NCBI RefSeq assembly: GCF_002160815.1
Contig: NZ_NFLH01000013.1
Span: 1 to 57,365 of the forward strand
Origin: Massilimicrobiota sp. An134
GTDB taxonomy: Bacteria > Bacillota_I > Bacilli_A > Erysipelotrichales > Coprobacillaceae
Direction of reading: 5' to 3'
DNA: 57,365 bases
Shown: piece by piece, positions 6,400 to 20,069 of the stretch
How positions within the stretch are numbered: position 1 is the stretch's first letter
How the letters are laid out: each line of letters begins with the position of its first letter
Position numbers and translations under genes: made by a program
The notes under the pieces: generated by a model
Databases searched by the model: none
What the model was told of the DNA's origin: nothing
What the model saw: only the letters and a program-made list of their open reading frames with translations

Positions 6400-7302
6400 A
6401 TGATACCACAATATAATGAAATGTATAATGAAGTGTTACACGTATTAAATAAACATCATCAGTTAAGAGTACGTGATATGGTAGATGAAGTATCTGATGT
6501 ATTACATTTAACTGAAGATGAAAGAAATCAAAAGATGGAAAACAGTCATAAAACAGTGATTTATCATCGTTTGGGATGGACAAAAACATATTTAACAAAA
6601 GCAGGATTGATTCGTTCTGTAGAAAGAGGTGTTTATCAAATTACACCTCAAGGAGAAAATATACTATCTTCTCATATTCATGTTGATGATGATTATTTAA
6701 TGCAATATGAAGAAGTTAGACAGTTTGTAAATCGTCATAATGAACAACCTGAAAATCAAACAAAACCAAAAGAGTCTACACCTTTAGAAAATATTGGTCA
6801 ATCTATTAAGATGATATCATCACGTGTCAGTGATGAATTGTTGGATATGATTATATCTAAAGATCCAGCTTTCTTTGAAAAACTGGTTTTAGATTTATTA
6901 GATAAAATGGGTTATGCTTATGATAAAGAATCTATCATTTCAACTGATTATAGTGGTGATGAAGGTATAGATGGAATTATCAATGAAGATCAGTTTGGAT
7001 TTAATAGTATTTATATTCAAGCTAAGAAATGGAATAGAAGTAGTGTGGGAAGACCAGAAATTCAGAAGTTTTTAGGCGCAGTAGCTGGTCAAGGTGGTAC
7101 AAAAGGATTATTTATTACAACATCTACTTTTACAAGAGAAGCCATTGATTATGCGAAAAAACAATTACAAGTTAAGCTCATTTTAGTTGATGGTAAAATG
7201 TTAACGGATTTAATGATGAAATATAATTTAGGTGTGAGTATTGTGCAGACTTATGAAATCAAACAATTAGATTTGGATTATTTTGATAGTGAACTTGTTT
7301 AA
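6400..7302 (+). CDS. Mrr-type restriction endonuclease
   Basis: A 300-residue protein with the two-domain Mrr layout. The N-terminal winged-helix Mrr_N domain covers about residues 1-90 (HQLRVRDMVDEV, then GWTKTYLTKAGLI). The C-terminal PD-(D/E)XK domain covers about residues 160-285: FEKLVLDLLDKMGY, catalytic aspartate in SGDEGIDGII, and the second motif IYIQAKKW, where Q replaces the usual E as in many Mrr proteins. Mrr enzymes are type IV nucleases that cut foreign modified DNA. The start follows AAAGGAG. Whether it prefers methyl-adenine or methyl-cytosine cannot be told from sequence. Confidence 0.88.
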   Translation: MIPQYNEMYNEVLHVLNKHHQLRVRDMVDEVSDVLHLTEDERNQKMENSHKTVIYHRLGWTKTYLTKAGLIRSVERGVYQITPQGENILSSHIHVDDDYLMQYEEVRQFVNRHNEQPENQTKPKESTPLENIGQSIKMISSRVSDELLDMIISKDPAFFEKLVLDLLDKMGYAYDKESIISTDYSGDEGIDGIINEDQFGFNSIYIQAKKWNRSSVGRPEIQKFLGAVAGQGGTKGLFITTSTFTREAIDYAKKQLQVKLILVDGKMLTDLMMKYNLGVSIVQTYEIKQLDLDYFDSELV

Positions 7303-7690: not shown

Positions 7691-8026
7691 GTGAAAAGGA
7701 TATATAATAAGCTTGTGAGAGACTATATACCAGAGATTATAGAAAAAGATAGTAAAGTATTTAAAACACGAATACTTACTAATGATGAATACATTATCGA
7801 GTTAAAAAAGAAATTAATTGAAGAAGCTTATGAGGTTAATGTAGCGTTAACCAAACAGAATATAATTGAAGAATTAGTTGATGTTATAGAGGTTGTTGAG
7901 GCTATTAAAGATATTTATAATATTAATGATACAGAGATTCAAAATGTTAAGGATAAAAAAAGTAAAAGTAATGGCAAGTTTGAGCAAAAGATTTTTTTAG
8001 AATATGTCATTGAGGATGAAATATGA
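7691..8026 (+). CDS. MazG-like (all-alpha) NTP pyrophosphohydrolase-type protein
   Basis: A 111-residue protein opening MKRIYNKLVRDYIPEII, the standard start of small phosphoribosyl-ATP-pyrophosphohydrolase-like proteins. Metal-binding acidic motifs of the all-alpha NTP-PPase fold are visible: LIEEAYEV followed by EELVDVIEVVEA (EExxE ... ExxD pattern). A GKFEQKIFLEYV tail is also typical of the family. Substrate is unknown; the fold hydrolyses nucleoside triphosphates to monophosphates. GTG 7691 is chosen since AGGTG at 7679-7684 suits it better than the GTG at 7682. Its stop overlaps the next ATG by 4 nt (ATGA), so the two are translationally coupled. Confidence 0.75.
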   Translation: MKRIYNKLVRDYIPEIIEKDSKVFKTRILTNDEYIIELKKKLIEEAYEVNVALTKQNIIEELVDVIEVVEAIKDIYNINDTEIQNVKDKKSKSNGKFEQKIFLEYVIEDEI

Positions 8027-8985
8027 GTGAATATATAAAGAATTGGTTAGATATTATTGAAAATATGAATAATGATAATACATATAAATTAGCATGGGGT
8101 AGAGCATTGTTGGAATTAATTATAGAACTTGATGTTGTTCAAGATGTGAATGTTTTTTCGTTTCAACAAATAGCAGTGAAGATGCTCAAATATTATTGGA
8201 ATCAAATATATTTTTTTCAGTTAAAACAAAGTCCTGCTAAGAAACCTATTATTGTTCAAGAAACTGAGAAATGTATTAGTTATGTTAACCAAATAAGGCA
8301 AATGAATAATCCTATATGGTTTGATTTGGCTGAAGATTATTTAAAAAAAGATTTGGAATTTTATCAAAAAAAGATAAATAAAATAGCAATAACATTAAAA
8401 CATGATGTATCTTGGAGATTTAAAAAAGTTAAAGATAAAACATTAGAAATTTATAGGATAGATTTAAAACAAAGAGAAATTTACTTTTCTAAAGAAGAAG
8501 TTATAGATTTAAAAGAATATGCTTTTATATTATCACAATTATTGAATTACAGGTGGGCTCAATTACTAGAAAAATTTAATAATAGTCCAAAAATATCTTT
8601 GAAAGTAAAAGGAATTTCTGATGAAAAAATAAGAAGAAATAATTTAACAAAGTTTAAAAATATATTGTTGGAACAGATGAAAGATGGAAAAATCATTGAT
8701 TTTTATACAGGTGATATCTTAGAAGAAAATGATATATCTGTTGATCACGTTATACCATGGTCCTTCATGTATAGTGACGATATATGGAACTTAGTGATTA
8801 CTTCTAAATCAATGAATTCTAGAAAAAGTAATACAATACCTGATGAGAAAACTATAAAAAGATTAGAAAACAGAAATAAAGAATTAATAAAAGCTATTGA
8901 TTATGGAACAATCTATTATAATGATTTAAAACAAGCAATAGAAAATAACTATGTGCAGAAATTCTATGTTTCTTGTAAGATGTAA
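8023..8985 (+). CDS. HNH endonuclease domain protein
   Basis: A 320-residue protein. Residues 1-200 are helical and unrecognised. The C-terminal part carries an HNH nuclease: CxxC-less form with FYTGDILEEND, the metal-binding ISVDHVIPWSFM (Asp-His), the central asparagine in WNLVITSKSMN and the closing NSRKSNTIP. This arrangement resembles HNH modules in restriction and anti-phage proteins, so DNA cleavage is the expected activity. It is coupled to the preceding pyrophosphohydrolase by a 4-nt overlap and followed by a strong terminator, so the pair is a closed two-gene unit. The function as a defence system is inferred from context only. Confidence 0.8.
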   Translation: MSEYIKNWLDIIENMNNDNTYKLAWGRALLELIIELDVVQDVNVFSFQQIAVKMLKYYWNQIYFFQLKQSPAKKPIIVQETEKCISYVNQIRQMNNPIWFDLAEDYLKKDLEFYQKKINKIAITLKHDVSWRFKKVKDKTLEIYRIDLKQREIYFSKEEVIDLKEYAFILSQLLNYRWAQLLEKFNNSPKISLKVKGISDEKIRRNNLTKFKNILLEQMKDGKIIDFYTGDILEENDISVDHVIPWSFMYSDDIWNLVITSKSMNSRKSNTIPDEKTIKRLENRNKELIKAIDYGTIYYNDLKQAIENNYVQKFYVSCKM

Positions 8986-9079: not shown

Positions 9080-9108
9080 GATCTTTACGCAGATCATAAA
9101 ATATGATC
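9080..9108 (+). promoter_or_regulatory. Cluster of three GATC sites upstream of the DUF262 gene
   Basis: GATC occurs at 9080-9083, 9092-9095 and 9105-9108, about 12-13 bp apart, in the only stretch that can hold this gene's promoter (between the terminator at 9031 and the ATG at 9134). GATC is the expected target of the methyltransferase and nuclease encoded downstream, so methylation-sensitive expression is possible. The -10 and -35 elements cannot be fixed confidently; TAAAAT at 9097-9102 is one candidate -10. Confidence 0.4.
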
Positions 9109-9133
9109 TAATTATGTTAAGAGGTGTTCAAAA

Positions 9134-11386
9134 ATGTCTAAAAAATGGAAAATTAAGGATTATAATGCTAAAGAGATTGCTGATAAAATTAAGGAAGGTA
9201 TTATAAAAGTTCCTCAATATCAGAGAGGCCAGGTGTGGAAGCCAAAACAAAAAGAAGGATTAATGGATTCAATAAAAAAAGGATATCCTTTTGGATCAAT
9301 TTTGTTATATAAAAAAGCAGATAATGATTATGAACTTATAGATGGTTTGCAAAGAATATCTACAATATATGAATATATATATAATCCAAGTAAATACTTC
9401 CAACAATATAATATTTCAGATAGTACATTAGATAAAATTTTTTTAGAATTAAAACTGGTTGGAAATAAAGAAACTATTAAAAAGAACATTGAAAAGGTCA
9501 TTAAAGAATGGGTTGAAGATAATACACGTACATTAGAAGATATTAAAAATATGAATGCAGCTAAATGTGTTAAATATATTCAAACCGAATTTCCAACATG
9601 TAATAATGGGGCATTATTTGAGATTACTAATATTTTAATTGATGAATTTTCATGCTTTAGAAATGAATGTGAAGATTTGGTAAATCTTGAAATTCCAGCA
9701 ATAGTATATGAAGGTAATCCAGATAGTTTACCAGACATATTTAGTAGAATTAATTCTAAAGGCATAACATTATCTAAATATCAAATATTATCAGCTACAT
9801 GGACAACGTATGAATACAAAATTATTGATAATAAATTGTTGGATATTATAGAATATGTAGATAAATTTTACGGAAGTATTTTGGAAAATAATTTCAGTAT
9901 TGAAGGGTATAATCCTTATGATATAAAAAAGACGAAAAAATTAAATTTTTATCAAATATTATTTGGATTTGGAAAACTAATATCAGTAAGATATCCATAT
10001 TTCTTCTTTAGATCAAAAAATGATCAAAATGTAGAAAGTAGTGGCTTTAGTCTTGTAAATGCTTGTATAGGAAATCAAAATAGTAAATTAGCAGAATTAC
10101 CAGCGATAATACAAGAACTATTTCCTACAGACAATCAATTTAATCAATTTTTAGTTAATGTTTTAAATACAATAGATTGTGTATATGCAATTTTTAAACC
10201 TTATTTAGAATTTAAATTAAATAAAAGAAAAGATTCTAAAGCTATTAATCAATCAGAATTTCAAATCTGCTCAATAGTTTCGAATTATTTTAATTTTAAA
10301 TATTCTACATACACATATGATGAATCTGGTAATGAAATTATAGGTAGAACAATTTTAATTGACAGATCAAATGCTGATTATAAAAAGTTTAAAAAAGCAT
10401 TTAAAAGCTATGCTTTTAAACGATATCTTGTTGACATATTAAATGATTACTGGCGTGGAAGTGGAGACAGCAAACTTAATCACGTGTCTTTAGACAAAAA
10501 TTATTATACTGATGAAATATCACCAGAAAAACTTGAAAATGAACTAGATCATTGGATAAGCAACATTAATAGTCGTAAAGAAAGTAAAAAAGTAGCCGAG
10601 CCAAAATCTATTGAAAAATTATTGTTAAGTATTATTTATAATAGATCATTTTCTGCCTATGAACAAAATGATGACATTAATTATGATATTGAACATTTAG
10701 CACCTAAAGGTAAATTGAAAATTTTAATTAAAAAGGTTGCAAAAAATGATGAACAAATTGGATTACCTATCAGCTCTTTTGCGAATATTTGTTTGTTGAG
10801 AGAAGCTATTAATAGAAAGAAAAAAGATAAAACATTATATGAAGATAATAAATATCTACAATGTCTATATGAAAAAGAAATTTCTCTTCAAGAAATTGAA
10901 GCACGTTTTTCTTTTACTACAAAAAAAGATTTGGAATGGATGGATAAAGATTATACTGACTTTAACGAATTAAAAGAAGATTATTTTAGGTTTTTAGACT
11001 GTAGATATAAAATCGTAAAGAAAAAAATTATTGATAATCTTTTTTATAATCAACTTGAATTCAAAAATCATTGTGCAAATAATAACAAGAATTCCCAAAA
11101 GAATTTATCTGTAAAAGACAAATCTTCAAAATACGTTTTATCAACTAAAAGTGAAATGCTTTACGAAGAGTTAAGTCAATCTGAAAAGGATATATTAAAT
11201 ATTGTAAAAAAGATGAAAAAAAATGAATTTGATATTACAGAAATGTATAATTACAAAGATGAATTAGAAGAATTATATCCGAATAATAATAATCTTGAAT
11301 CAAAGATTCGTCAGAATTTGCAACATTTAAGAGATAAAGGATATATAGAATTTATATCTCGCGGTAAGTATAGACGTTTCAAATAG
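9134..11386 (+). CDS. DUF262-HNH protein with DpnI-type C-terminal winged helix
   Basis: A 750-residue multidomain protein. Residues 1-220 form a DUF262 (ParB/Srx-like, GmrS-type) domain: VPQYQRGQVWKPKQ, then the signature DGLQR at 70-74 and FSRINSKGITLS. Residues about 510-590 contain a DUF1524-like HNH nuclease (DIEHLAPKG, then NICLLREAINRKKKDK). The last 55 residues match the winged-helix domain of DpnI closely: IRQNLQHLRDKGYIEF followed by SRGKYRRF, against IRQQLQILRDK and GRGKYRKL in DpnI as I recall it. In DpnI that domain helps recognise methylated GATC. GmrSD-type proteins are modification-dependent nucleases, so a nuclease sensing Gm6ATC is a reasonable inference. The start follows AGAGGTG. 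Confidence 0.85.
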   Translation: MSKKWKIKDYNAKEIADKIKEGIIKVPQYQRGQVWKPKQKEGLMDSIKKGYPFGSILLYKKADNDYELIDGLQRISTIYEYIYNPSKYFQQYNISDSTLDKIFLELKLVGNKETIKKNIEKVIKEWVEDNTRTLEDIKNMNAAKCVKYIQTEFPTCNNGALFEITNILIDEFSCFRNECEDLVNLEIPAIVYEGNPDSLPDIFSRINSKGITLSKYQILSATWTTYEYKIIDNKLLDIIEYVDKFYGSILENNFSIEGYNPYDIKKTKKLNFYQILFGFGKLISVRYPYFFFRSKNDQNVESSGFSLVNACIGNQNSKLAELPAIIQELFPTDNQFNQFLVNVLNTIDCVYAIFKPYLEFKLNKRKDSKAINQSEFQICSIVSNYFNFKYSTYTYDESGNEIIGRTILIDRSNADYKKFKKAFKSYAFKRYLVDILNDYWRGSGDSKLNHVSLDKNYYTDEISPEKLENELDHWISNINSRKESKKVAEPKSIEKLLLSIIYNRSFSAYEQNDDINYDIEHLAPKGKLKILIKKVAKNDEQIGLPISSFANICLLREAINRKKKDKTLYEDNKYLQCLYEKEISLQEIEARFSFTTKKDLEWMDKDYTDFNELKEDYFRFLDCRYKIVKKKIIDNLFYNQLEFKNHCANNNKNSQKNLSVKDKSSKYVLSTKSEMLYEELSQSEKDILNIVKKMKKNEFDITEMYNYKDELEELYPNNNNLESKIRQNLQHLRDKGYIEFISRGKYRRFK

Positions 11387-11420
11387 TTTCATCTTAACTT
11401 GACTTACTTTAAAAATTGAT

Positions 11421-11435
11421 CCATGATAATCATGG
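11421..11435 (+). promoter_or_regulatory. 15-bp palindrome abutting the dpnD ribosome-binding site
   Basis: CCATGAT-A-ATCATGG is a perfect inverted repeat with 7-bp arms, and its right arm runs into the GGTGATG ribosome-binding site of the DpnD-like gene. A GATC overlaps its left edge (11418-11421). It could be an operator or a hairpin that hides the ribosome-binding site. Confidence 0.4.
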
Positions 11436-11442
11436 TGATGAA

Positions 11443-11622
11443 ATGAAAAAATATACAATAACAATTCATGAAACTTTAAGTAAAAGCATTAGTGTAGAAG
11501 CTGAAAATGAAGAACAAGCAAGACAGTTGATACAATCAAAATATGATTCAGGTGAATTTATGCTTTATCCTGAAGAATGTGATATTGAAACAAGTATTGA
11601 AGTTAATGAAAAGATCCCTTAG
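11443..11622 (+). CDS. dpnD: DpnD/PcfM-like small protein
   Basis: A 59-residue protein opening MKKYTITIHETLSKSISVEA, matching the DpnD-PcfM family of small proteins. In Streptococcus pneumoniae dpnD belongs to the DpnI cassette (dpnC-dpnD); its role is unknown. Here it follows the DUF262 protein that ends in a DpnI-like domain, a fitting partner. The ATG at 11443 with GGTGATG just upstream is used; an earlier in-frame ATG at 11416 has no ribosome-binding site and lies across the palindrome. Its stop codon lies inside the left inverted repeat of the recombinase cassette. Confidence 0.7.
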   Translation: MKKYTITIHETLSKSISVEAENEEQARQLIQSKYDSGEFMLYPEECDIETSIEVNEKIP

Positions 11623-11647
11623 TAATGAACTAAGAGATCTTTTTTAT
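11611..11647 (+). terminator. Terminator T1 after dpnD, containing the left recombination repeat
   Basis: AAGATC-C-CTTAGT pairs with ACTAAG-A-GATCTT around the loop AATGA (11624-11628), one A-C mismatch in a 13-bp stem, followed by TTTTATT. The stem is built from the left 18-bp repeat plus outer and inner flanks, and each arm carries a GATC. Confidence 0.8.
11616..11633 (+). repeat. Left inverted repeat (IR-L) of the recombinase cassette
   Basis: CCCTTAGTAATGAACTAA is found here, and its exact reverse complement lies at 12675-12692. Internally it has a recombinase core layout: arms CTTAGT and ACTAAG (5-6 bp) around a 5-bp asymmetric spacer AATGA. Confidence 0.9.
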
Positions 11648-11717
11648 TAAGATTATTTTAACAGTTTTTAAATAAATATTCTATCATTTTGTTATCTTAA
11701 TATTTGGAGGTAATAAA

Positions 11718-12644
11718 ATGATAAGAAAAAAGAAATATAAGTTTATTAATATTTTAGATGAATGGTTAGAAATTCAAAGATATCATATCAAAGAATCAAC
11801 ATATGCGACTTATTATAGTCATATAAACAATCATATCAAACCATATTTTCAATCATATTATCTAAAAGATATAAATCAGAAAATTATTCAATTATTTGTT
11901 ATTGAAAAATTAAAATGTGGACGAATTAAAGATTCAACAGGGTTATCAATAAAGACAGTCAAAGAATTGGTAAATATTATCAAACTTGGCTTAAAATATT
12001 GTACAGAAAAAGGATATATTGATAACATAAATTTAAATATTAAATATCCTTATAAAGTTAAGAAAATAAATATCCTTGATCAAAATGAATATCGCATTTT
12101 GGTGGATTATCTTAAAAACAATCCTAATCATTTTCATATAGGAATATTATTTATTTTATGTACAGGTGTAAGAATTGGAGAATTGTGTGCTTTAAAAAAT
12201 GATGATATTGATTTAGTAAATAAAGAAATTCATATTGATAAAACACTTCAAAGAATAGCTGATATTGAAAATAAAAAAACGAAAATTATTATTAGTTCTA
12301 CAAAAACAAAAAAATCAGCAAGGGTTATACCAATTCCTGATGTATTAATACCGTATTTAATTATGAATGATAGTGATAATTACTTTCTAACGCAATCATC
12401 AAAATATTATGAACCAAGAAGATTTAGATATAAATTTAAATCTTTATTAAAAACATTAGATATAAGTAATGTAACAGTGCACTCATTAAGACATTATTTT
12501 GCAACTCAATGTATTGAACTAGGTTTTGATTACAATTGTTTAAGTGAAATATTAGGACATGCATCACCTGCAACAACAATGAATTTATATGTTCATTGTC
12601 AAAATAAATATAAACAAGATTGCATGAACAGAATACATATTTAG
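11718..12644 (+). CDS. Tyrosine recombinase (probable site-specific invertase)
   Basis: A 308-residue phage-integrase-family recombinase. The N-terminal SAM-like core-binding domain covers about residues 1-105; the catalytic domain carries Arg in TGVRIGEL, Lys in STKTKKSAR, His-x-x-Arg in HSLRH, the second His in LGHAS and the nucleophile Tyr in MNLYVH. All six expected residues are present, so it should be active. The start follows TTTGGAGG. No phage or conjugation genes lie nearby, and the gene is enclosed by an 18-bp inverted repeat, which fits a DNA invertase better than a phage integrase. Weak AT-rich promoter elements lie at 11645-11705, and its own terminator follows. Confidence 0.92.
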   Translation: MIRKKKYKFINILDEWLEIQRYHIKESTYATYYSHINNHIKPYFQSYYLKDINQKIIQLFVIEKLKCGRIKDSTGLSIKTVKELVNIIKLGLKYCTEKGYIDNINLNIKYPYKVKKINILDQNEYRILVDYLKNNPNHFHIGILFILCTGVRIGELCALKNDDIDLVNKEIHIDKTLQRIADIENKKTKIIISSTKTKKSARVIPIPDVLIPYLIMNDSDNYFLTQSSKYYEPRRFRYKFKSLLKTLDISNVTVHSLRHYFATQCIELGFDYNCLSEILGHASPATTMNLYVHCQNKYKQDCMNRIHI

Positions 12645-12647
12645 TCC

Positions 12648-12674
12648 AAATCCGTTTTCAACGGATTTTTTCTT
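12648..12674 (+). terminator. Terminator T2 after the recombinase gene
   Basis: AAATCCGTT (12648-12656) pairs with AACGGATTT (12660-12668), loop TTC, then TTTCTTTT. T2 ends immediately before the right inverted repeat. Read on the other strand the hairpin lacks a T tract, so it would not terminate if the segment were inverted. Confidence 0.85.
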
Positions 12675-12692
12675 TTAGTTCATTACTAAGGG
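12675..12692 (-). repeat. Right inverted repeat (IR-R) of the recombinase cassette
   Basis: This is the exact reverse complement of 11616-11633 (18 of 18). It sits between terminator T2 and the AAAGGAG ribosome-binding site of the methyltransferase gene, leaving no room for a full promoter downstream of it. Confidence 0.9.
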
Positions 12693-12707
12693 AAAAAAGG
12701 AGTGAAT

Positions 12708-14282
12708 ATGAAACCTTTTGTAAAATGGGCTGGTGGAAAAACACAGTTATTAGAAGAAATAGAAAAACTATTACCAAGCAAAATAAATCATTATTATGAG
12801 CCGTTTGTCGGTGGTGGTGCTGTTGCATTGCATTTTATGTTTGAAAAAGCAACAATAAATGATATTAATCAAGAACTTATTTTTACGTATGAGTGTATAA
12901 AAAATCAGAAAGATGAATTATTAAAAGAATTGGATAAATTGGCTTTGGAGCATGAAAAGAATCCTAAAGAATTTTATTATCATACAAGAGATTTATATAA
13001 TGAAATGATGGCAAATCAAGAAAAAAACATTTCTTTAGCAGCAATGTTTATTTATTTGAATAAACATTGTTTTAATGGATTATATAGAGTTAATTCTAAA
13101 GGTTTATTTAATGTACCATTTAATCAAAAGAAATCAGGAAATTCTTATAAAAAAGAGGATATAGATCAAATATCTAAGTATTTACAGAATGTAAATATTT
13201 TGTGTACTGATTTTGAAAATGTTTGTAAGAACTGTGAAAAAGGTGATTTTGTATTTTTTGATAGTCCTTATGATCTTTTAAATGATACATCGTTTGAATC
13301 ATATACTAAAGAAGGATTTACAAAAGAAGAACATATTAGATTAGCTAATCTTTATAAAGAGTTATCTAAAAAAGGTGTCTATTGTATGCTGACAAATCAT
13401 AATACAGAACTCATAAGAGAACTTTATAAAGACTTTCATATCAAGGTTATTAATGTTAAAAGAAATATTAATTCAGATGCTAAAAAAAGAACTGGTGAAG
13501 AAGTGATTATTACTAATTATGAATCAAATAATGATATTCAATTAATTAATGGTGATGCTTTTGAAATATTACCTACTATTAAAGATAAAACAATAGATAT
13601 GATATTTCTTGATCCACCATATTTTCTATCAAATGGCGGTATATCTTGCTCAGGTGGTAAGCAAGTTTCTGTTAATAAAGGTGAATGGGATGAAAATTAT
13701 TCTTTTCAGGAAAAGGTAGATTTCAATAGGAAATGGATAATAGAAGCAAAAAGAATATTAAAAGATACAGGAACAATATGGGTATCTGGTACTTATCACA
13801 ACATTTATATTATTGGGTATTTATTAGAAGAATTAGGATTTAAAATAATTAATAATGTAACTTGGATGAAAACAAATCCACCACCAAATTTAGCATGTCG
13901 TTGTTTTACTCATTCAACTGAAACACTATTATGGGCAAAAAAGAATATTAAAAATGTTAAGCATACTTTTCATTACAAATTAATGAAAGAATTGAATGAA
14001 GGAAAGCAAATGAAAGATGTATTTGTTGGATCATTAACACCACAAAAAGAAAAGAGATATGGGAAACATCCCACGCAGAAGCCTGAATATCTATTAGAAA
14101 AAATTATTTTAGCAAGTACAAATGAAAATGACCTTGTCTGTGATTTTATGGCGGGTAGCTTTACAACTGGCGTTGTATGTAAGAAGTTAAAGAGAAGATT
14201 TATAGGAATAGAAAAAGAAAAGGAATTTTATGAAATAGGTTTAAAGAGAATAGAGGATGTTAATTATGGAGAGAAACTTTGA
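12708..14282 (+). CDS. Fused DpnM-DpnA type GATC adenine methyltransferase
   Basis: A 524-residue protein holding two N6-adenine methyltransferases. Residues 1-272 are a Dam/DpnM-type D12-class enzyme: FVKWAGGK at the N-terminus, SAM-binding EPFVGGGA at 31-38 and catalytic DSPY at 185-188. Residues 275-524 are a DpnA-type enzyme with the permuted order: catalytic DPPY at 302-305 and the SAM-binding DFMAGSFTTG near the C-terminus. In the pneumococcal DpnII system these are two separate proteins, DpnM (double-stranded GATC) and DpnA (also single-stranded DNA). Here they are one polypeptide. The ATG at 12708 has AAAGGAG 5 nt upstream; GTG 12702 is inside that site. It overlaps the nuclease gene by 17 nt. 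Confidence 0.92.
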   Translation: MKPFVKWAGGKTQLLEEIEKLLPSKINHYYEPFVGGGAVALHFMFEKATINDINQELIFTYECIKNQKDELLKELDKLALEHEKNPKEFYYHTRDLYNEMMANQEKNISLAAMFIYLNKHCFNGLYRVNSKGLFNVPFNQKKSGNSYKKEDIDQISKYLQNVNILCTDFENVCKNCEKGDFVFFDSPYDLLNDTSFESYTKEGFTKEEHIRLANLYKELSKKGVYCMLTNHNTELIRELYKDFHIKVINVKRNINSDAKKRTGEEVIITNYESNNDIQLINGDAFEILPTIKDKTIDMIFLDPPYFLSNGGISCSGGKQVSVNKGEWDENYSFQEKVDFNRKWIIEAKRILKDTGTIWVSGTYHNIYIIGYLLEELGFKIINNVTWMKTNPPPNLACRCFTHSTETLLWAKKNIKNVKHTFHYKLMKELNEGKQMKDVFVGSLTPQKEKRYGKHPTQKPEYLLEKIILASTNENDLVCDFMAGSFTTGVVCKKLKRRFIGIEKEKEFYEIGLKRIEDVNYGEKL

Positions 14283-15132
14283 GAAATGGCTATCAACTTT
14301 AAGAAGTTCAATATCTGATTATAAATATTATGTTGACTTTGAAAAGGTATATGAAAATATAAATGATATTAAAGTTGAATTAAATATTTTAAATTCATTA
14401 ATAGGATCAAAAGATTTTGATGATGAGTTTAGATCTATATGTCAGAAATATCCTCAAACATTAAAATGCATTCCTATATTGTTGGCTGTCAGACAATATG
14501 AGATAGAAGTGCAAACAAACTATAAAAATATTAAATATGATTTTATGTTATATAAATACAAAAAATTATCTCATAATGATATTGATCTCTATCTTGAGTT
14601 TTTAAAAGAAACTGGATTAAAAGAGTTGATAGTTAATCATATTATTAATAATTTAGTTGACTATGTATTAGGCATAGAGGTTGGATTAGATTCAAATGGA
14701 AGAAAAAATCGTGGTGGACATTTGATGGAAAATTTATTAGAAAGATATATTCAAGAGCTGAATGTTGAATATTATAAAGAAATGTATACTAAAGATATTG
14801 AAAAGAAATGGAATATTGATTTATCACTACTTACAAATGCTGGAGATGTTGCTAAAAGGTTTGATTTTGTTGTAAAAACAGAGAATCAAATTTATGTTTT
14901 TGAAACGAATTTTTATAAAGCTGGTGGAAGCAAGTTAAATGAAACAGCAAGAAGTTATAAAAATATCACCCAAGAAATTGATAGGGTTGAAGGAGTAACA
15001 TTTATATGGGTCACTGATGGTTATGGTTGGCGAAGTGCTAAACATAATCTTAAGGAGACCTTTGATGTATTGAATACTTTGTATAATATTCATGATTTAG
15101 AAAATGGAATTTTGAGAAAAGTCATCTTATGA
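14266..15132 (+). CDS. DpnII-type restriction endonuclease (GATC)
   Basis: A 288-residue protein, the same length as R.DpnII and matching it throughout: MERNFEKWLSTL at the start, LNSLIGSK, NLVDYVLGIEVG, NGRKNRGG, KRFDFVV, GSKLNETARSYK and VTDGYGW. The probable metal site is formed by the aspartate of RFDFV and the glutamate of VFETNFY. It should cut unmethylated GATC and is paired with the fused methyltransferase upstream, which protects the host. The ATG at 14266 is chosen because it gives the family length and follows GAGG by 9 nt; another ATG at 14257 abuts that site. A weak hairpin with a T tract follows (15122-15143). Confidence 0.93.
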   Translation: MERNFEKWLSTLRSSISDYKYYVDFEKVYENINDIKVELNILNSLIGSKDFDDEFRSICQKYPQTLKCIPILLAVRQYEIEVQTNYKNIKYDFMLYKYKKLSHNDIDLYLEFLKETGLKELIVNHIINNLVDYVLGIEVGLDSNGRKNRGGHLMENLLERYIQELNVEYYKEMYTKDIEKKWNIDLSLLTNAGDVAKRFDFVVKTENQIYVFETNFYKAGGSKLNETARSYKNITQEIDRVEGVTFIWVTDGYGWRSAKHNLKETFDVLNTLYNIHDLENGILRKVIL

Positions 15133-15304
15133 TGATTTTTTATTTTATAAGCATATAAGAAAATAGATTTTGGATATTCTAGTATGAAGATAAAATAATA
15201 ATTTTATATTATTAATATGTACAATTTAAATTTTTTACAAAGAATAAAAATTTTGAATTTGTTAAATGTTTTTGTGTTATATTTCTTTTGGAAAGGGGAA
15301 GAAA

Positions 15305-16720
15305 ATGAAAAAATTAAACTTAATTCCTGATATAGATCACTTATGGAAGACTCTTGGCTATCATTTTGAAAATCTTTCTCAAGTTATTCATGAGTTTGTG
15401 GATAATGCTATTTCGGATTTTATTAGAAATAAAATTAAAAATGGTGAAATTATTATTACATTCAAAAAAATGAGCAAAAATAAAGTAGAAGTTATAATCG
15501 AAGATCATGGAAAAGGTATTATAGACATTGAAAATGCTTTAACTCTGGGAGGAATGAAATTTTTTGAATCTTTGTTTAATGAACATGGAAGTGGTTCGAA
15601 TAATGGTTTATCGTTTGTTGATCCTTTTAATTTGAGCTGGATAATAATGACAAGAACAATAAAAGATGCTTTACAGGGGCAATATAAAGTAGTAAGAGCA
15701 CCTTATTCATTTAAAGGTATGAATGTTGAGATACATAAAGGAAATTGCTTGACGGGTAGTGAAACAGGAACAATTATTAAATTCACATGTTCATATGATA
15801 TTTTTAAGACAATAAGAATTCCATTTGGAAGTCAAACATCTCAATTTAAAGATTTAGTGGATCTATTGTATGAAGATTTAGGTGTTCATTATTCATATAT
15901 CATTAAACAAGAAAATATTAAAATAACAATAAAGGCTTTTGATGACGATAAAGAATATAATAGTATAGCTGATGTAAAACCTATATTTCCAGTTGTCGAA
16001 AAGTGTAAAATGAATAAATCGCAAATGGTTGATTTAGGTAATGGAGTAGTCAAAATCGATTTGAAACATATTATCATGTCAAAAAATACACTAACAAAGA
16101 AATATTATTTAAAAAATATGAGATCTTCAGGAGTAGAAATACGTTTTAACGGGAGATTGCTTGAATTTTTGGGCTTTGAAGAAATTTGGGGTATAAAATC
16201 ACATCCATTTTATAATGGTAATCTCATAGTTGTCAATTTAATTTCTGATAAAAGAGGAAGACTACCTAATACACGTACAACAAAAACTGGTTTAAATAGA
16301 TCTGATTCAAAAACCGCATTTTTATTTCATTGGATTGCTGATCAAATTTCATTATTGTATGATGAAAAAGAAATGAATCAAAATATAAAAATGAAATTTA
16401 TTGATCAAGTTGTAAATTTGACTTTTGTTGATAAAGAAAACATAATTTATGATGCTATTAAAACAAAAAAATTTATTTGTAATTGTCAAGTTTGCACTCA
16501 TGAGGGTTATGATTTGTATTTTGAATGTATAAAAACTAAAGTTAATGATCTCTACTTTTTTGAAAAGTTGTGGGATGAACAACTATTATTGAATAAACCT
16601 ATCGGTAGAATTATTCTAATTGCCGACGAACATCCAGAGCCAGTGAGAGAACGTGTTAGGTTGATTAATAAAAAGAATATTGAAGGGAAAAATTATAATA
16701 TTGTTTTAATTAAAAAGTAA
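15305..16720 (+). CDS. GHKL ATPase (MutL/MORC-like) of restriction-system type
   Basis: A 471-residue protein with a GHKL ATP-binding domain in its first 200 residues. The N box is EFVDNA (30-35, catalytic Glu30, Asn34), then EDHGKGI (66-72) and a HGSGSNNGLSF lid (94-104). A transducer-like beta-rich region follows with a KRGRLP loop (KRGRLPNTRTTKTGLNR). MutL/MORC-like GHKL ATPases linked to restriction-modification operons are known. The C-terminus has a CNCQVC cluster and no recognised nuclease motif. The ATG at 15305 follows AAAGGGGAAG; an upstream in-frame ATG at 15266 has no ribosome-binding site. It lies 172 bp after the DpnII gene, so it may be a separate unit. Confidence 0.8.
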   Translation: MKKLNLIPDIDHLWKTLGYHFENLSQVIHEFVDNAISDFIRNKIKNGEIIITFKKMSKNKVEVIIEDHGKGIIDIENALTLGGMKFFESLFNEHGSGSNNGLSFVDPFNLSWIIMTRTIKDALQGQYKVVRAPYSFKGMNVEIHKGNCLTGSETGTIIKFTCSYDIFKTIRIPFGSQTSQFKDLVDLLYEDLGVHYSYIIKQENIKITIKAFDDDKEYNSIADVKPIFPVVEKCKMNKSQMVDLGNGVVKIDLKHIIMSKNTLTKKYYLKNMRSSGVEIRFNGRLLEFLGFEEIWGIKSHPFYNGNLIVVNLISDKRGRLPNTRTTKTGLNRSDSKTAFLFHWIADQISLLYDEKEMNQNIKMKFIDQVVNLTFVDKENIIYDAIKTKKFICNCQVCTHEGYDLYFECIKTKVNDLYFFEKLWDEQLLLNKPIGRIILIADEHPEPVRERVRLINKKNIEGKNYNIVLIKK

Positions 16721-16879: not shown

Positions 16880-17272
16880 ATGAAAATAGTTAATGTTGTT
16901 GCTGCCATCATCAAAAGAGATGATCAGATATTAATTGCTAAAAGAGGATATGGAGAATTCAAAGGAATGTATGAGTTTCCTGGAGGAAAAATAGAAAAAG
17001 GTGAAACACCTGAAGAAGCATTAAAAAGGGAAATAAAAGAAGAAATGGAAGCAAATATTGAAGTTGATTCATTTATATGTCATGTTCATTATCAATATCC
17101 AGATTTTATATTGGAAATGGATTGTTATTTATGTCATTTGAAAGATGCACATATTTCATTATTAGAACATTTAGATGCAAAATGGATTCATCCTGTTCAA
17201 GAAGATATATTATGGGTTCCTGCTGATGTACAAGTTATCGAGGAAATAAGAAGGAAGGTTCACAATGGATAA
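16880..17272 (+). CDS. NUDIX hydrolase (MutT-like)
   Basis: A 130-residue NUDIX protein with a perfect Nudix box from Gly36: GKIEKGE, then REIKEE at 50-55 (pattern G-x5-E-x7-R-E-x2-E-E). The size and layout resemble 8-oxo-dGTP diphosphatase MutT. The ATG at 16880 has GGAGG 5 nt upstream. It overlaps the following helicase gene by 8 nt, so the two are translationally coupled; such NUDIX plus PLD-helicase-DUF3427 pairs recur in Firmicutes. A housekeeping role in nucleotide sanitation is less likely here than a role with the helicase, but this is inference. Confidence 0.85.
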   Translation: MKIVNVVAAIIKRDDQILIAKRGYGEFKGMYEFPGGKIEKGETPEEALKREIKEEMEANIEVDSFICHVHYQYPDFILEMDCYLCHLKDAHISLLEHLDAKWIHPVQEDILWVPADVQVIEEIRRKVHNG

Positions 17273-20069
17273 CCTTTTATTACAAGAAAGAACTAGACTC
17301 ATTTATAATGATCAACAACAAAACAAAAAGGTTATAACAGATATTGAAAATGCATTATTAGATTGTGATACATTTGATATTTCTGTTGCTTTTATAGCGT
17401 TATCAGGATTGGCTTCTATTAGAGAAACTTTACATAAATTGAAAGTTCAAAATAAAAAAGGAAGAATCATCACAAGTACATATTTAGGATTTAATGAACC
17501 TAAAATGTTTAAAGACTTATTAAAATATCCTAACATAGAGGTACGAGTATATGATGATCATCATGGTTTTCATTCTAAAGGTTATATCTTCCAAAAAAAT
17601 TCAAATTATTGGGCAATAGTAGGAAGTTCAAATTTAACACAGTCTGCTTTATCATTAAATCAAGAATGGAATGTTTATGTATCATCACATAAACAAAATG
17701 ATACAATAAAACAAATACAAGGTGAATTTGAAAATCAATGGCAAAGATCAATTCCTTTAACTCATGAATGGATCAATGAATATCAAAAAAATTATGTTAA
17801 ACCTGAAAAACATTCAATACGACATATTCAAAAAGACATTGTCCCCAATTATATGCAAAGACAAGCTTTAGCTTCATTAGAACACTTAAGACAACAAAAT
17901 CAAGATAGGGCATTGCTTATTTCAGCAACAGGAACCGGTAAGACATATCTTTCTGCTTTTGATGTTCAAAAAGTTAAACCTCGTAGAATGTTATTTGTTG
18001 TTCATAGAAAAAGTATTGCTTTGAAAGCTATGGAAACATTTCAAACAATTATTAAAGATAAAACAATGGGTATTTTTTCTGGCAATGTTAAAGAATTGGA
18101 TAAAGATTATTTGTTTTCAACAGTTCAAACTATTCATAAAAAAGAAAATAGAGAATTATTTAAACAAGATGAATTTGATTATATTATTATTGATGAAGTT
18201 CATAAAGCGGGAGCTTATACATATCAAGAATTAGTTCATTATTTTCATCCTCAATTTTTATTAGGTATGTCAGCTACACCAGAAAGAAATGATCAGTTTG
18301 ATATATATAAAATGTTTCATTATAATATTGCTTATGAGATCAGACTTCAACAAGCAATGGAATATGATCTGTTATGTCCTTTCCATTATTATGGTATCAC
18401 TGATTTAAATATTGATGGTATTAGTATAGATGATAAATCTGATTTTAATCTTTTAATTAATGAAAAACGTATTGATTATATTATTGAAAAAATTGAAGAA
18501 TATGGATATTCAGGTGAAAAGGTTCATGGTTTAATTTTTGTAAGTAGGAAACAAGAAGCTATTGAATTGTCCAATTTATTTAATCAAAGAGGTTATAATA
18601 CTATTGCATTAACTGGTGATGATAATGAAGAAAAAAGACAGGAAGCAATGGATCGCCTTGAATCTAATGATGAAGATGGCTTAGATTATATTTTTACAGT
18701 TGATATTTTTAATGAAGGAATTGATATTCCTAAAGTGAATCAAGTTGTGATGCTTAGGCCAACACAATCAGCTATTATTTTTGTACAACAGCTTGGAAGA
18801 GGATTAAGAAGAAATGATGAAAAAGATTATGTCGTTGTTATTGATTTTATTGGGAATTATGAAAGAAACTTTTTAATTCCTATAGCTTTAAGTGGAAATA
18901 CAAACTTAAATAAAGATACACTGAGACAATTTATAACTGAAAGAAATGTCTTAATACCTGGAGTATCAACAATTCAATTTGATGAAATATCTCAAAAAAG
19001 AATCTTTGAATCAATTGATCATGCAAATTTTAATGATGTTAAACTGATTAAAGAAAGTTATGTTCAATTAAAAGCTAAATTGGGCAGAATACCTCATATT
19101 AAAGATTTTGAAAAATATGGTGCTATTGATATCCAAAAGATATTTCAAAATAAGGGTTTAGGTTCTTATCATATGTTTTTAAAGAAATATGAGAAAGAAT
19201 ATGATGTTCAATTTTCTTCATTAGAAGAAAAGTATTTACAATTTATTTCATCAAAACTTTCTTCAGCTAAACGTGTTCAAGAATTAGAAGCCATTAAACT
19301 TGCTATAGAAAGAAAAGTACATGTTAATGAATATTTAAAACAACAAATGTTAGATGAATATCAAATTCAAATGCCAGAAGTGAGTTATACAACAATACAA
19401 AATATATTAACTCAAAATTTTGCAACAGGATCATCTAAAGATGCTTTTAAAGATGTTCCTATTTTGGATACTGATTGGAACATATCTCATGTTTTTCAAT
19501 CACTATTAAATAATGAAGAATTTAAAAGACAAGTATTAGAAGTCATTGATTATGGTATAGATCTATATAAACAAGAGTATAGTCAACGCTATCAAAACAC
19601 AGATTTATGTTTATATAAGAAATATACATATGAGGATGTTTGTCAGTTACTTAATTGGGAAAAGAATCTTGTTCCTTTAAACATAGGTGGATATAAATAT
19701 GATCAACATACAAATACTTTACCAGTCTTTATTAATTATGATAAGGAAGAAGATATTGCAGATACAATTAAATATACAGATCATTTTGTAGACCCACAAA
19801 CATTAGTTGCTATGTCAAAGAGTAAATTAAAACTTGGTAGTAAAGGGATGGATATATTTACTCAAGCTAAACAAAGACAAACAATAATTCATATTTTTGT
19901 TCGAAAGAATAAAGATGATAAAACTTCTAAAGAATTTTATTATTTAGGTATTGGAAATATTATAAATATCAAACAAGAATATATGGCAGATCAAATTCCA
20001 GTATGTGAAATTTTATATCATTTAGATCAACCTGTAAGACAAGATATTTATGATTATATAGTGAAATAA
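17265..20069 (+). CDS. PLD nuclease - SF2 helicase - DUF3427 protein
   Basis: A 934-residue protein. The N-terminal phospholipase-D-type nuclease domain (residues about 1-165) carries HSKGYIF with the HxK pair at 103-105 and GSSN at 120-123. The central superfamily II helicase has Walker A ATGTGKT (221-227), DEVH (310-313), SATPER (336-341) and QQLGRGLRR (motif VI, near 505). The remaining 380 residues correspond to a DUF3427-like region. The order resembles restriction-type DNA translocases with a nuclease head. The ATG is preceded by AAGGAAGG inside the NUDIX gene and overlaps its stop. The SWIM gene follows after 16 bp, making a three-gene operon. Confidence 0.87.
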   Translation: MDNLLLQERTRLIYNDQQQNKKVITDIENALLDCDTFDISVAFIALSGLASIRETLHKLKVQNKKGRIITSTYLGFNEPKMFKDLLKYPNIEVRVYDDHHGFHSKGYIFQKNSNYWAIVGSSNLTQSALSLNQEWNVYVSSHKQNDTIKQIQGEFENQWQRSIPLTHEWINEYQKNYVKPEKHSIRHIQKDIVPNYMQRQALASLEHLRQQNQDRALLISATGTGKTYLSAFDVQKVKPRRMLFVVHRKSIALKAMETFQTIIKDKTMGIFSGNVKELDKDYLFSTVQTIHKKENRELFKQDEFDYIIIDEVHKAGAYTYQELVHYFHPQFLLGMSATPERNDQFDIYKMFHYNIAYEIRLQQAMEYDLLCPFHYYGITDLNIDGISIDDKSDFNLLINEKRIDYIIEKIEEYGYSGEKVHGLIFVSRKQEAIELSNLFNQRGYNTIALTGDDNEEKRQEAMDRLESNDEDGLDYIFTVDIFNEGIDIPKVNQVVMLRPTQSAIIFVQQLGRGLRRNDEKDYVVVIDFIGNYERNFLIPIALSGNTNLNKDTLRQFITERNVLIPGVSTIQFDEISQKRIFESIDHANFNDVKLIKESYVQLKAKLGRIPHIKDFEKYGAIDIQKIFQNKGLGSYHMFLKKYEKEYDVQFSSLEEKYLQFISSKLSSAKRVQELEAIKLAIERKVHVNEYLKQQMLDEYQIQMPEVSYTTIQNILTQNFATGSSKDAFKDVPILDTDWNISHVFQSLLNNEEFKRQVLEVIDYGIDLYKQEYSQRYQNTDLCLYKKYTYEDVCQLLNWEKNLVPLNIGGYKYDQHTNTLPVFINYDKEEDIADTIKYTDHFVDPQTLVAMSKSKLKLGSKGMDIFTQAKQRQTIIHIFVRKNKDDKTSKEFYYLGIGNIINIKQEYMADQIPVCEILYHLDQPVRQDIYDYIVK

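Follow-up and report, generated by a model that had tools for sequence, protein, structure and literature searches.

A candidate self-inverting recombinase cassette that may lock and unlock a DpnII-type restriction-modification operon in Massilimicrobiota

Here, we describe a 1.07-kb segment between dpnD and dpnM of Massilimicrobiota sp. An134 that is probably an invertible lock carrying its own recombinase, which would gate the dpnM-dpnA-dpnII operon through hairpins at its two ends, with the operon OFF in the orientation found here and ON in the orientation of a related locus, L038. Coordinates refer to the window, by which we mean the whole 57,365-nt stretch of DNA analyzed (contig NZ_NFLH01000013.1), unless a locus handle precedes them. 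A self-encoded inversion switch had been proposed here in a first-pass annotation, and comparison with relatives supports it, as the cassette recurs in four other species, the spacers of its two sites match within each locus, and L038 is inverted with its hairpin halves swapped. The annotation predicted that the recombinase flips its own gene, which the comparison supports; the main consequence of inversion, we propose, would instead be to lock and unlock the dpnM/dpnA/dpnII operon, and the GmrSD-DpnI_C gene upstream may give such a switch its meaning.

Recombination sites, recombinase and related cassettes

The 18-bp perfect inverted repeat first noticed, CCCTTAGTAATGAACTAA, occurs exactly at 11616-11633 on the forward strand and at 12675-12692 on the reverse strand, and a chance match was rightly considered negligible: these two are the sole matches in the window at up to three mismatches, and shuffled windows contain a mean of 0.06. 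The repeat extends beyond 18 bp, to a left recombination site at 11615-11637 (+ strand) and a right site at 12671-12693 (- strand) that are identical at 22 of 23 positions, with one mismatch. Each site has the form already recognized, two arms around an asymmetric 5-nt spacer, AATGA; the core CTTAGT-AATGA-ACTAAG lies at 11618-11634 on the left and, as an inverted copy, at 12674-12690 on the right. Two features had escaped the first reading: dpnD ends within the left site, which contains its TAG stop codon, with half of a terminator in or beside that site, and the Shine-Dalgarno sequence and start codon of dpnM follow the right site by approximately 5 and 15 nt. Across the 2.56-Mb genome, YTTAGTNNNNNACTAAR (the YTTAGT-N5-ACTAAR motif) is found at exactly two places, both at the element; the reversed pattern, counted as a control, gives 10 occurrences. 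Five relatives with the recombinase carry the motif as a flanking pair (one site in the broken locus of genome G022) plus at most one single copy elsewhere, and it is absent from three same-genus genomes without the recombinase. Single site-like palindromes elsewhere in recombinase-bearing genomes (L143, G021:C109; L136, G028:C112; L145, G035:C37) could be plain hairpins or extra targets. Two viral sequences matched a 20-mer of the recombinase-side junction; they are unrelated to the locus and were read as chance.

The annotation was also right that the repeats enclose a single gene, that of an intact tyrosine recombinase (11718-12644, + strand; 308 aa; Pfam Phage_integrase 3e-23), the presumed invertase, whose catalytic residues R152, K196, H255, R258, H281, and Y291 are invariant across 31 aligned homologues. 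A putative promoter, TTAACA-N18-TATCAT (11658-11687, + strand), matches the consensus at 10 of 12 positions and is conserved in five of five loci; a consensus promoter scan taken alone carries no information here (33 found, 33.4 expected). The terminator-like scan reported an intrinsic-terminator-like hairpin after the gene (12648-12668, + strand), which is present in the window, L041, and L038 and is not evident in L039 or L040. Control of the recombinase promoter by GATC methylation was considered and dropped, as a GATC is found there in L041 only. The nearest recombinases, at 55-59% identity, belong to four species of the same family, named in the genome collection as Erysipelotrichaceae bacterium (two), Erysipelatoclostridium sp. 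An173, and Candidatus Stoquefichus sp. Querying this collection with the single recombinase sequence gave no match, and an alignment-based query recovered four close relatives together with distant ones; the five recombinases (window and L038-L041) form one clade with a support of 0.999. Viral contigs, plasmids, and phages yielded distant recombinases only, at about 23-41% identity.

In the four other species (L038-L041), the site-recombinase-site cassette sits at the equivalent place, between a defense gene and a GATC-type methylase, and each recombinase is enclosed by inverted TTTAGT-N5-ACTAAA sites. Left and right spacers are the same in five of five loci (AATGA, TACGT, TAAAA, TAAAA, and TAATT), with four different sequences between loci; identity within a locus is what recombination between the sites requires. 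The gene order of L041 is that of the window, L039 and L040 keep dpnD without the GmrSD gene, and in L038 a GmrSD-DpnI_C gene is present, a different putative nuclease comes after the Dam-type methylase, and the recombinase is on the opposite strand. The opposite orientation, which the annotation had suggested seeking in related assemblies, is therefore found across species, L038 being inverted relative to the other four loci. Repeats retained without the recombinase had been named as evidence against a switch, and the motif is absent from ten fetched DpnII/GmrSD stretches that have no recombinase. The protein that replaces the DpnII nuclease in L038 (L038:11210-12526) is of the DUF6996/DUF6997/DUF7226 type; since the methylase and the invertible element are both kept there, the switch seems tied to the methylase. 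A further locus, in G022 (L042:59-715), keeps the right site and has a recombinase that is truncated at the end of the contig, with a frameshift close to its C-terminus. It is possibly a locked switch, and owing to this damage it was left out of the orientation count.

Junction hairpins and the proposed lock

The genes around the cassette make up a DpnII-type Type II restriction-modification system, with DpnM- and DpnA-type methylases and a DpnII nuclease all present. Upstream lies dpnD (11443-11622, + strand; DpnD-PcfM family, Pfam 3.2e-14), with homologues in L039, L040, and L041, behind a putative promoter, TTGACT-N17-CATGAT (11399-11427, + strand), whose -10 is abutted by a GATC (11418-11421), as it is in the same three loci. 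Downstream, dpnM and dpnA are joined in a single reading frame (12708-14282, + strand; Dam-type D12 plus CcrM-like N6 adenine methylase; Pfam 8.8e-69 and 1.9e-57, TIGR00571 1.1e-89), as they also are in L039-L042, and the product is presumed to be a GATC methylase. No other D12 methylase was detected in the genome. The dpnM half of the fusion has DSPY at motif IV, not the DPPY usual in Dam-type enzymes (the separate methylase of L038 has DPPY), and we therefore treat methylase activity as predicted only. The next gene, dpnB (14257-15132, + strand; Pfam DpnII 1.1e-106), encodes the DpnII restriction endonuclease, which, judging by its family, presumably cuts unmethylated GATC. The approximately 15 nt between the right site and the dpnM start are too few for a separate promoter, which places the start of dpnM transcripts within the element or upstream of it.

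To quantify pairing at the junctions, the ten bases outside each core were compared with the ten inside, as found and after computed inversion. As found, the four loci in the window's orientation pair at 9, 9, 10, and 10 of 10 positions on the left and at 8, 10, 10, and 10 on the right, falling to 3-5 of 10 when inverted (in the window, from 9 to 4 on the left and from 8 to 3 on the right). L038 behaves in reverse, going from 4 and 4 as found to 9 and 9 when inverted. For random 12-mer pairs, the mean is 5.3 paired positions, and at least 9 are reached in about 0.7% of cases. Because both flank pairing and folds reverse relative to the other four loci, L038 most plausibly represents this element in its flipped state; as a single opposite-orientation locus in another species, it supports inversion in the course of evolution, which says nothing of the rate in culture. 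Arms that are complementary across each recombination site may also provide a cheap criterion for recognizing locked orientations in other genomes.

At the left junction, this pairing forms a hairpin followed by a T tract (11608-11644, + strand) that resembles an intrinsic terminator, one half of its stem lying outside and the other inside the invertible segment. For 57 nt across this junction in the window, RNAfold predicts -15.9 kcal/mol as found and -10.2 kcal/mol inverted, the latter mostly from another hairpin; left junctions in general show a stem and then a T tract at -15.9 to -18.5 kcal/mol that collapse on inversion, and L038 regains them when inverted. By predicted folding and flank pairing, a junction terminator is present in one orientation only, the arrangement proposed for the CwpV switch discussed below. 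At the right junction, the hairpin extension (12664-12702, + strand) adjoins the dpnM Shine-Dalgarno sequence AGGAG (12698-12702). The predicted stem takes in this sequence in L039 and L040 and some of it in L041, whereas in inverted L038 and in the window it stops about 2 to 5 nt short (about 5 in the window). Given this gap, an effect of the window's right hairpin on dpnM translation is less certain than termination at the left junction.

We propose that the segment 11618-12690 is flipped by its own recombinase acting on the two inverted TTAGT-N5-ACTAA sites, and that such flipping would occur in living populations. In the window orientation, with the recombinase pointing toward dpnM, the left-site terminator would stop transcription arriving from gmrSD and dpnD, the right-site hairpin, covering or adjoining the dpnM Shine-Dalgarno sequence, would block transcripts from the recombinase side, and the recombinase terminator (in the window, L041, and L038 when flipped) would be a further block, leaving the dpnM-dpnA-dpnII operon OFF. 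After a flip, as in L038, the hairpin extensions would be lost, rightward read-through would become possible, and the Shine-Dalgarno sequence would be free, turning the operon ON; a weak outward promoter, its position kept in five loci, may add to this state. Several points weigh against the proposed lock. L038 stands alone, in another species and with a different downstream nuclease. The function of the hairpins is predicted from folding, and the left one went unreported by the terminator-like scan, whose criteria include three G-C pairs and a T-rich tail. The right stem falls short of the Shine-Dalgarno sequence in the window and covers it partly in L041, and the outward promoter matches at only 3 of 6 positions at its -35. 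Finally, transcripts running through from gmrSD when the operon is ON would also express a nuclease that is predicted to act against a methylated genome, unless the gmrSD promoter were shut off. If the lock is real, GATC methylation, restriction, and the acceptance of foreign DNA would change together, and at random, in a gut commensal.

A putative GATC-reading nuclease and alternative readings

That upstream nuclease gene (9134-11386, + strand), here gmrSD, encodes a GmrSD_N (DUF262)-HNH-DpnI_C fusion (Pfam GmrSD_N 6.6e-31, DpnI_C 3.3e-22) predicted to be Gm6ATC-dependent; phmmer matches it to R.DpnI (4esj, 6.5e-12) and to a DUF262 protein (7p9k, 2.3e-5). Its DGLQR and EHLAP motifs and K724/R726/Q730 are invariant in three homologues. 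K229, R231, and Q235 have been reported as key residues of the winged helix with which DpnI reads Gm6ATC (PMC10101028). The fusion has, like DpnI, a winged-helix domain with these K/R/Q contact residues, and their equivalents are conserved in the window, L041, and L038, the copy in genome G020 having R for K. The PD-(D/E)XK catalytic domain of DpnI is missing from it, the N-terminal part being GmrSD/DUF262 with an HNH-like motif. Though not a DpnI, the protein may thus work like a DpnI-type reader nuclease. Winged-helix fusions with different architectures act as Dam-dependent nucleases; few genomes encode a conflicting methylase alongside them, and tight control of expression may be how the conflict is avoided (PMC11037411). 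Of the nine genomes tested, four have the DpnI_C domain, and all four carry the recombinase-methylase cassette; no plasmid copy of GmrSD-DpnI_C was found, and the GmrSD homologues of G025 and of four class-level genomes lack DpnI_C, their alignment ending at about residue 650.

Other defense genes surround the locus. Mrr-type (6400-7302) and helicase-type (17265-20069) Type IV restriction genes flank it, making this a defense island. At 8023-8985 lies a gene for an HNH protein resembling the HNH region of Cas9 (HNH_4), a 50% identical homologue of which adjoins a DpnII locus in another family (L125:5229-6188), and an HSP90/histidine-kinase-type ATPase is encoded directly 3' of dpnB (15266-16720).

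Both upstream promoters carry conserved GATCs. The putative gmrSD promoter, TTTACG-N17-TCTAAT (9084-9112, + strand), has a GATC overlapping its -10 (9105-9108), with more at 9080 and 9092, and TTTAC-N12-TATGATCTAAT, with a GATC over the likely -10, precedes every one of the four gmrSD-DpnI_C genes identified, the unlinked one of G020 among them; a GATC likewise abuts the predicted -10 of four dpnD promoters. These conserved sites suggest methylation feedback on gmrSD and dpnD. They admit a tentative reading, to which we give a minor share of belief, in which the locus is a two-state epigenetic toggle between an unmethylated state with GmrSD-DpnI_C and a GATC-methylated state with DpnII, methylation of the gmrSD promoter silencing the conflicting nuclease. 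Retention of the DpnI contact residues, co-occurrence of DpnI_C with the cassette in all four genomes that have it, the promoter GATCs, and dpnMA as the sole D12 methylase detected are consistent with this, as is the rarity of such nuclease/methylase conflicts and their possible avoidance through tight expression control (PMC11037411). However, gmrSD lies outside the flipped segment, the cassette exists without gmrSD in L039 and L040, gmrSD is unlinked in G020, and GATC specificity, nuclease activity, and promoter repression by methylation are all predictions. The fuller version of the toggle, that one lineage reversibly flips between opposite GATC identities by means of a self-inverting cassette, with promoter methylation preventing self-destruction, is slightly less probable.

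The outward promoter could itself be the switch, driving dpnM from upstream of the recombinase only when flipped, with the hairpins secondary. The element in question, TAGAAT-N17-TGTTAAAAT, overlaps 11658-11687 on the other strand and keeps its position in five of five loci, where a TAGAWT element stands 17 nt ahead of an extended -10 resembling TGTTARAAT. We consider this unlikely: its -35 matches at 3 of 6 positions, the same bases make up, on the other strand, the putative recombinase promoter (10/12), and the conserved hairpin arms would be left unexplained. Less probable still is the absence of any inversion, the palindromes being static hairpins (a dpnD terminator and a dpnM attenuator) and the recombinase an unrelated mobile-element gene. 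The left site does fold like a terminator and four of five loci share one orientation, but L038 is inverted with swapped arms, spacers are equal within loci and different between them, and the motif is missing from the ten fetched DpnII/GmrSD stretches that have no recombinase gene. The idea that a transposon-like recombinase element, with the repeats as its ends, inserted between dpnD and dpnM is least credible of all, for although related recombinases occur in several genomic contexts, the insertion point is identical in five species, the dpnD stop codon is part of the site in the window, the dpnM ribosome-binding site is near it in all, the window's genome has no further copy of the motif, and inverted rather than direct sites allow no excision.

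Comparison with known inversion systems

A search limited to the open-access literature found no description of a DpnII-type inversion switch. The proposed lock is like the CwpV switch of Clostridioides difficile in its inversion by a tyrosine recombinase (RecV in CwpV); CwpV also has a promoter upstream of the segment, where ours has the predicted dpnD and gmrSD promoters that may drive the operon, and for CwpV an intrinsic terminator has been proposed at the left junction in the OFF orientation only (PMC2784873). In CwpV, however, the segment is 195 bp and geneless, recV is elsewhere, and the target is a surface protein, whereas our segment contains the recombinase gene and would act on a methylase/restriction operon. 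Hin of Salmonella is a serine recombinase that flips a promoter for flagellin. Its segment resembles ours in that the invertase gene is within the inverted DNA, according to the mention of it in PMC2784873. Closer to hand, L044 and L045, from the same bacterial family, each have a related recombinase that is flanked by its own inverted repeats and neighbored by NusG-like and sugar-polymer genes, with another site sequence and other target genes. One of these recombinases points toward its operon and one away (L044:8724-9692, L045:9405-10349), and the right junction of L044 has a terminator-like hairpin that becomes weaker when the segment is inverted. The self-flanked recombinase module seems to be general, with the DpnII operon as new cargo.

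Inversion-based phase-variable methylation is best known from the shuffling of Type I specificity. Site-specific inversion alters genome methylation in the Type I loci of S. pneumoniae (the cod locus, with PsrA) and Mycoplasma pulmonis, as it would here, but the pneumococcal inversions shuffle hsdS specificity genes, whereas here a whole Type II GATC operon would apparently be gated on and off by RNA signals. The DpnI, DpnII, and DpnIII cassettes of Streptococcus pneumoniae cut methylated versus unmethylated GATC, generally with one cassette per isolate (PMC12707154). Unlike these, the present locus combines a predicted DpnI-like nuclease and a DpnII-type system with an invertible element between them, offering a testable case in which two mutually toxic defenses may be held by switching between them rather than by choosing one.
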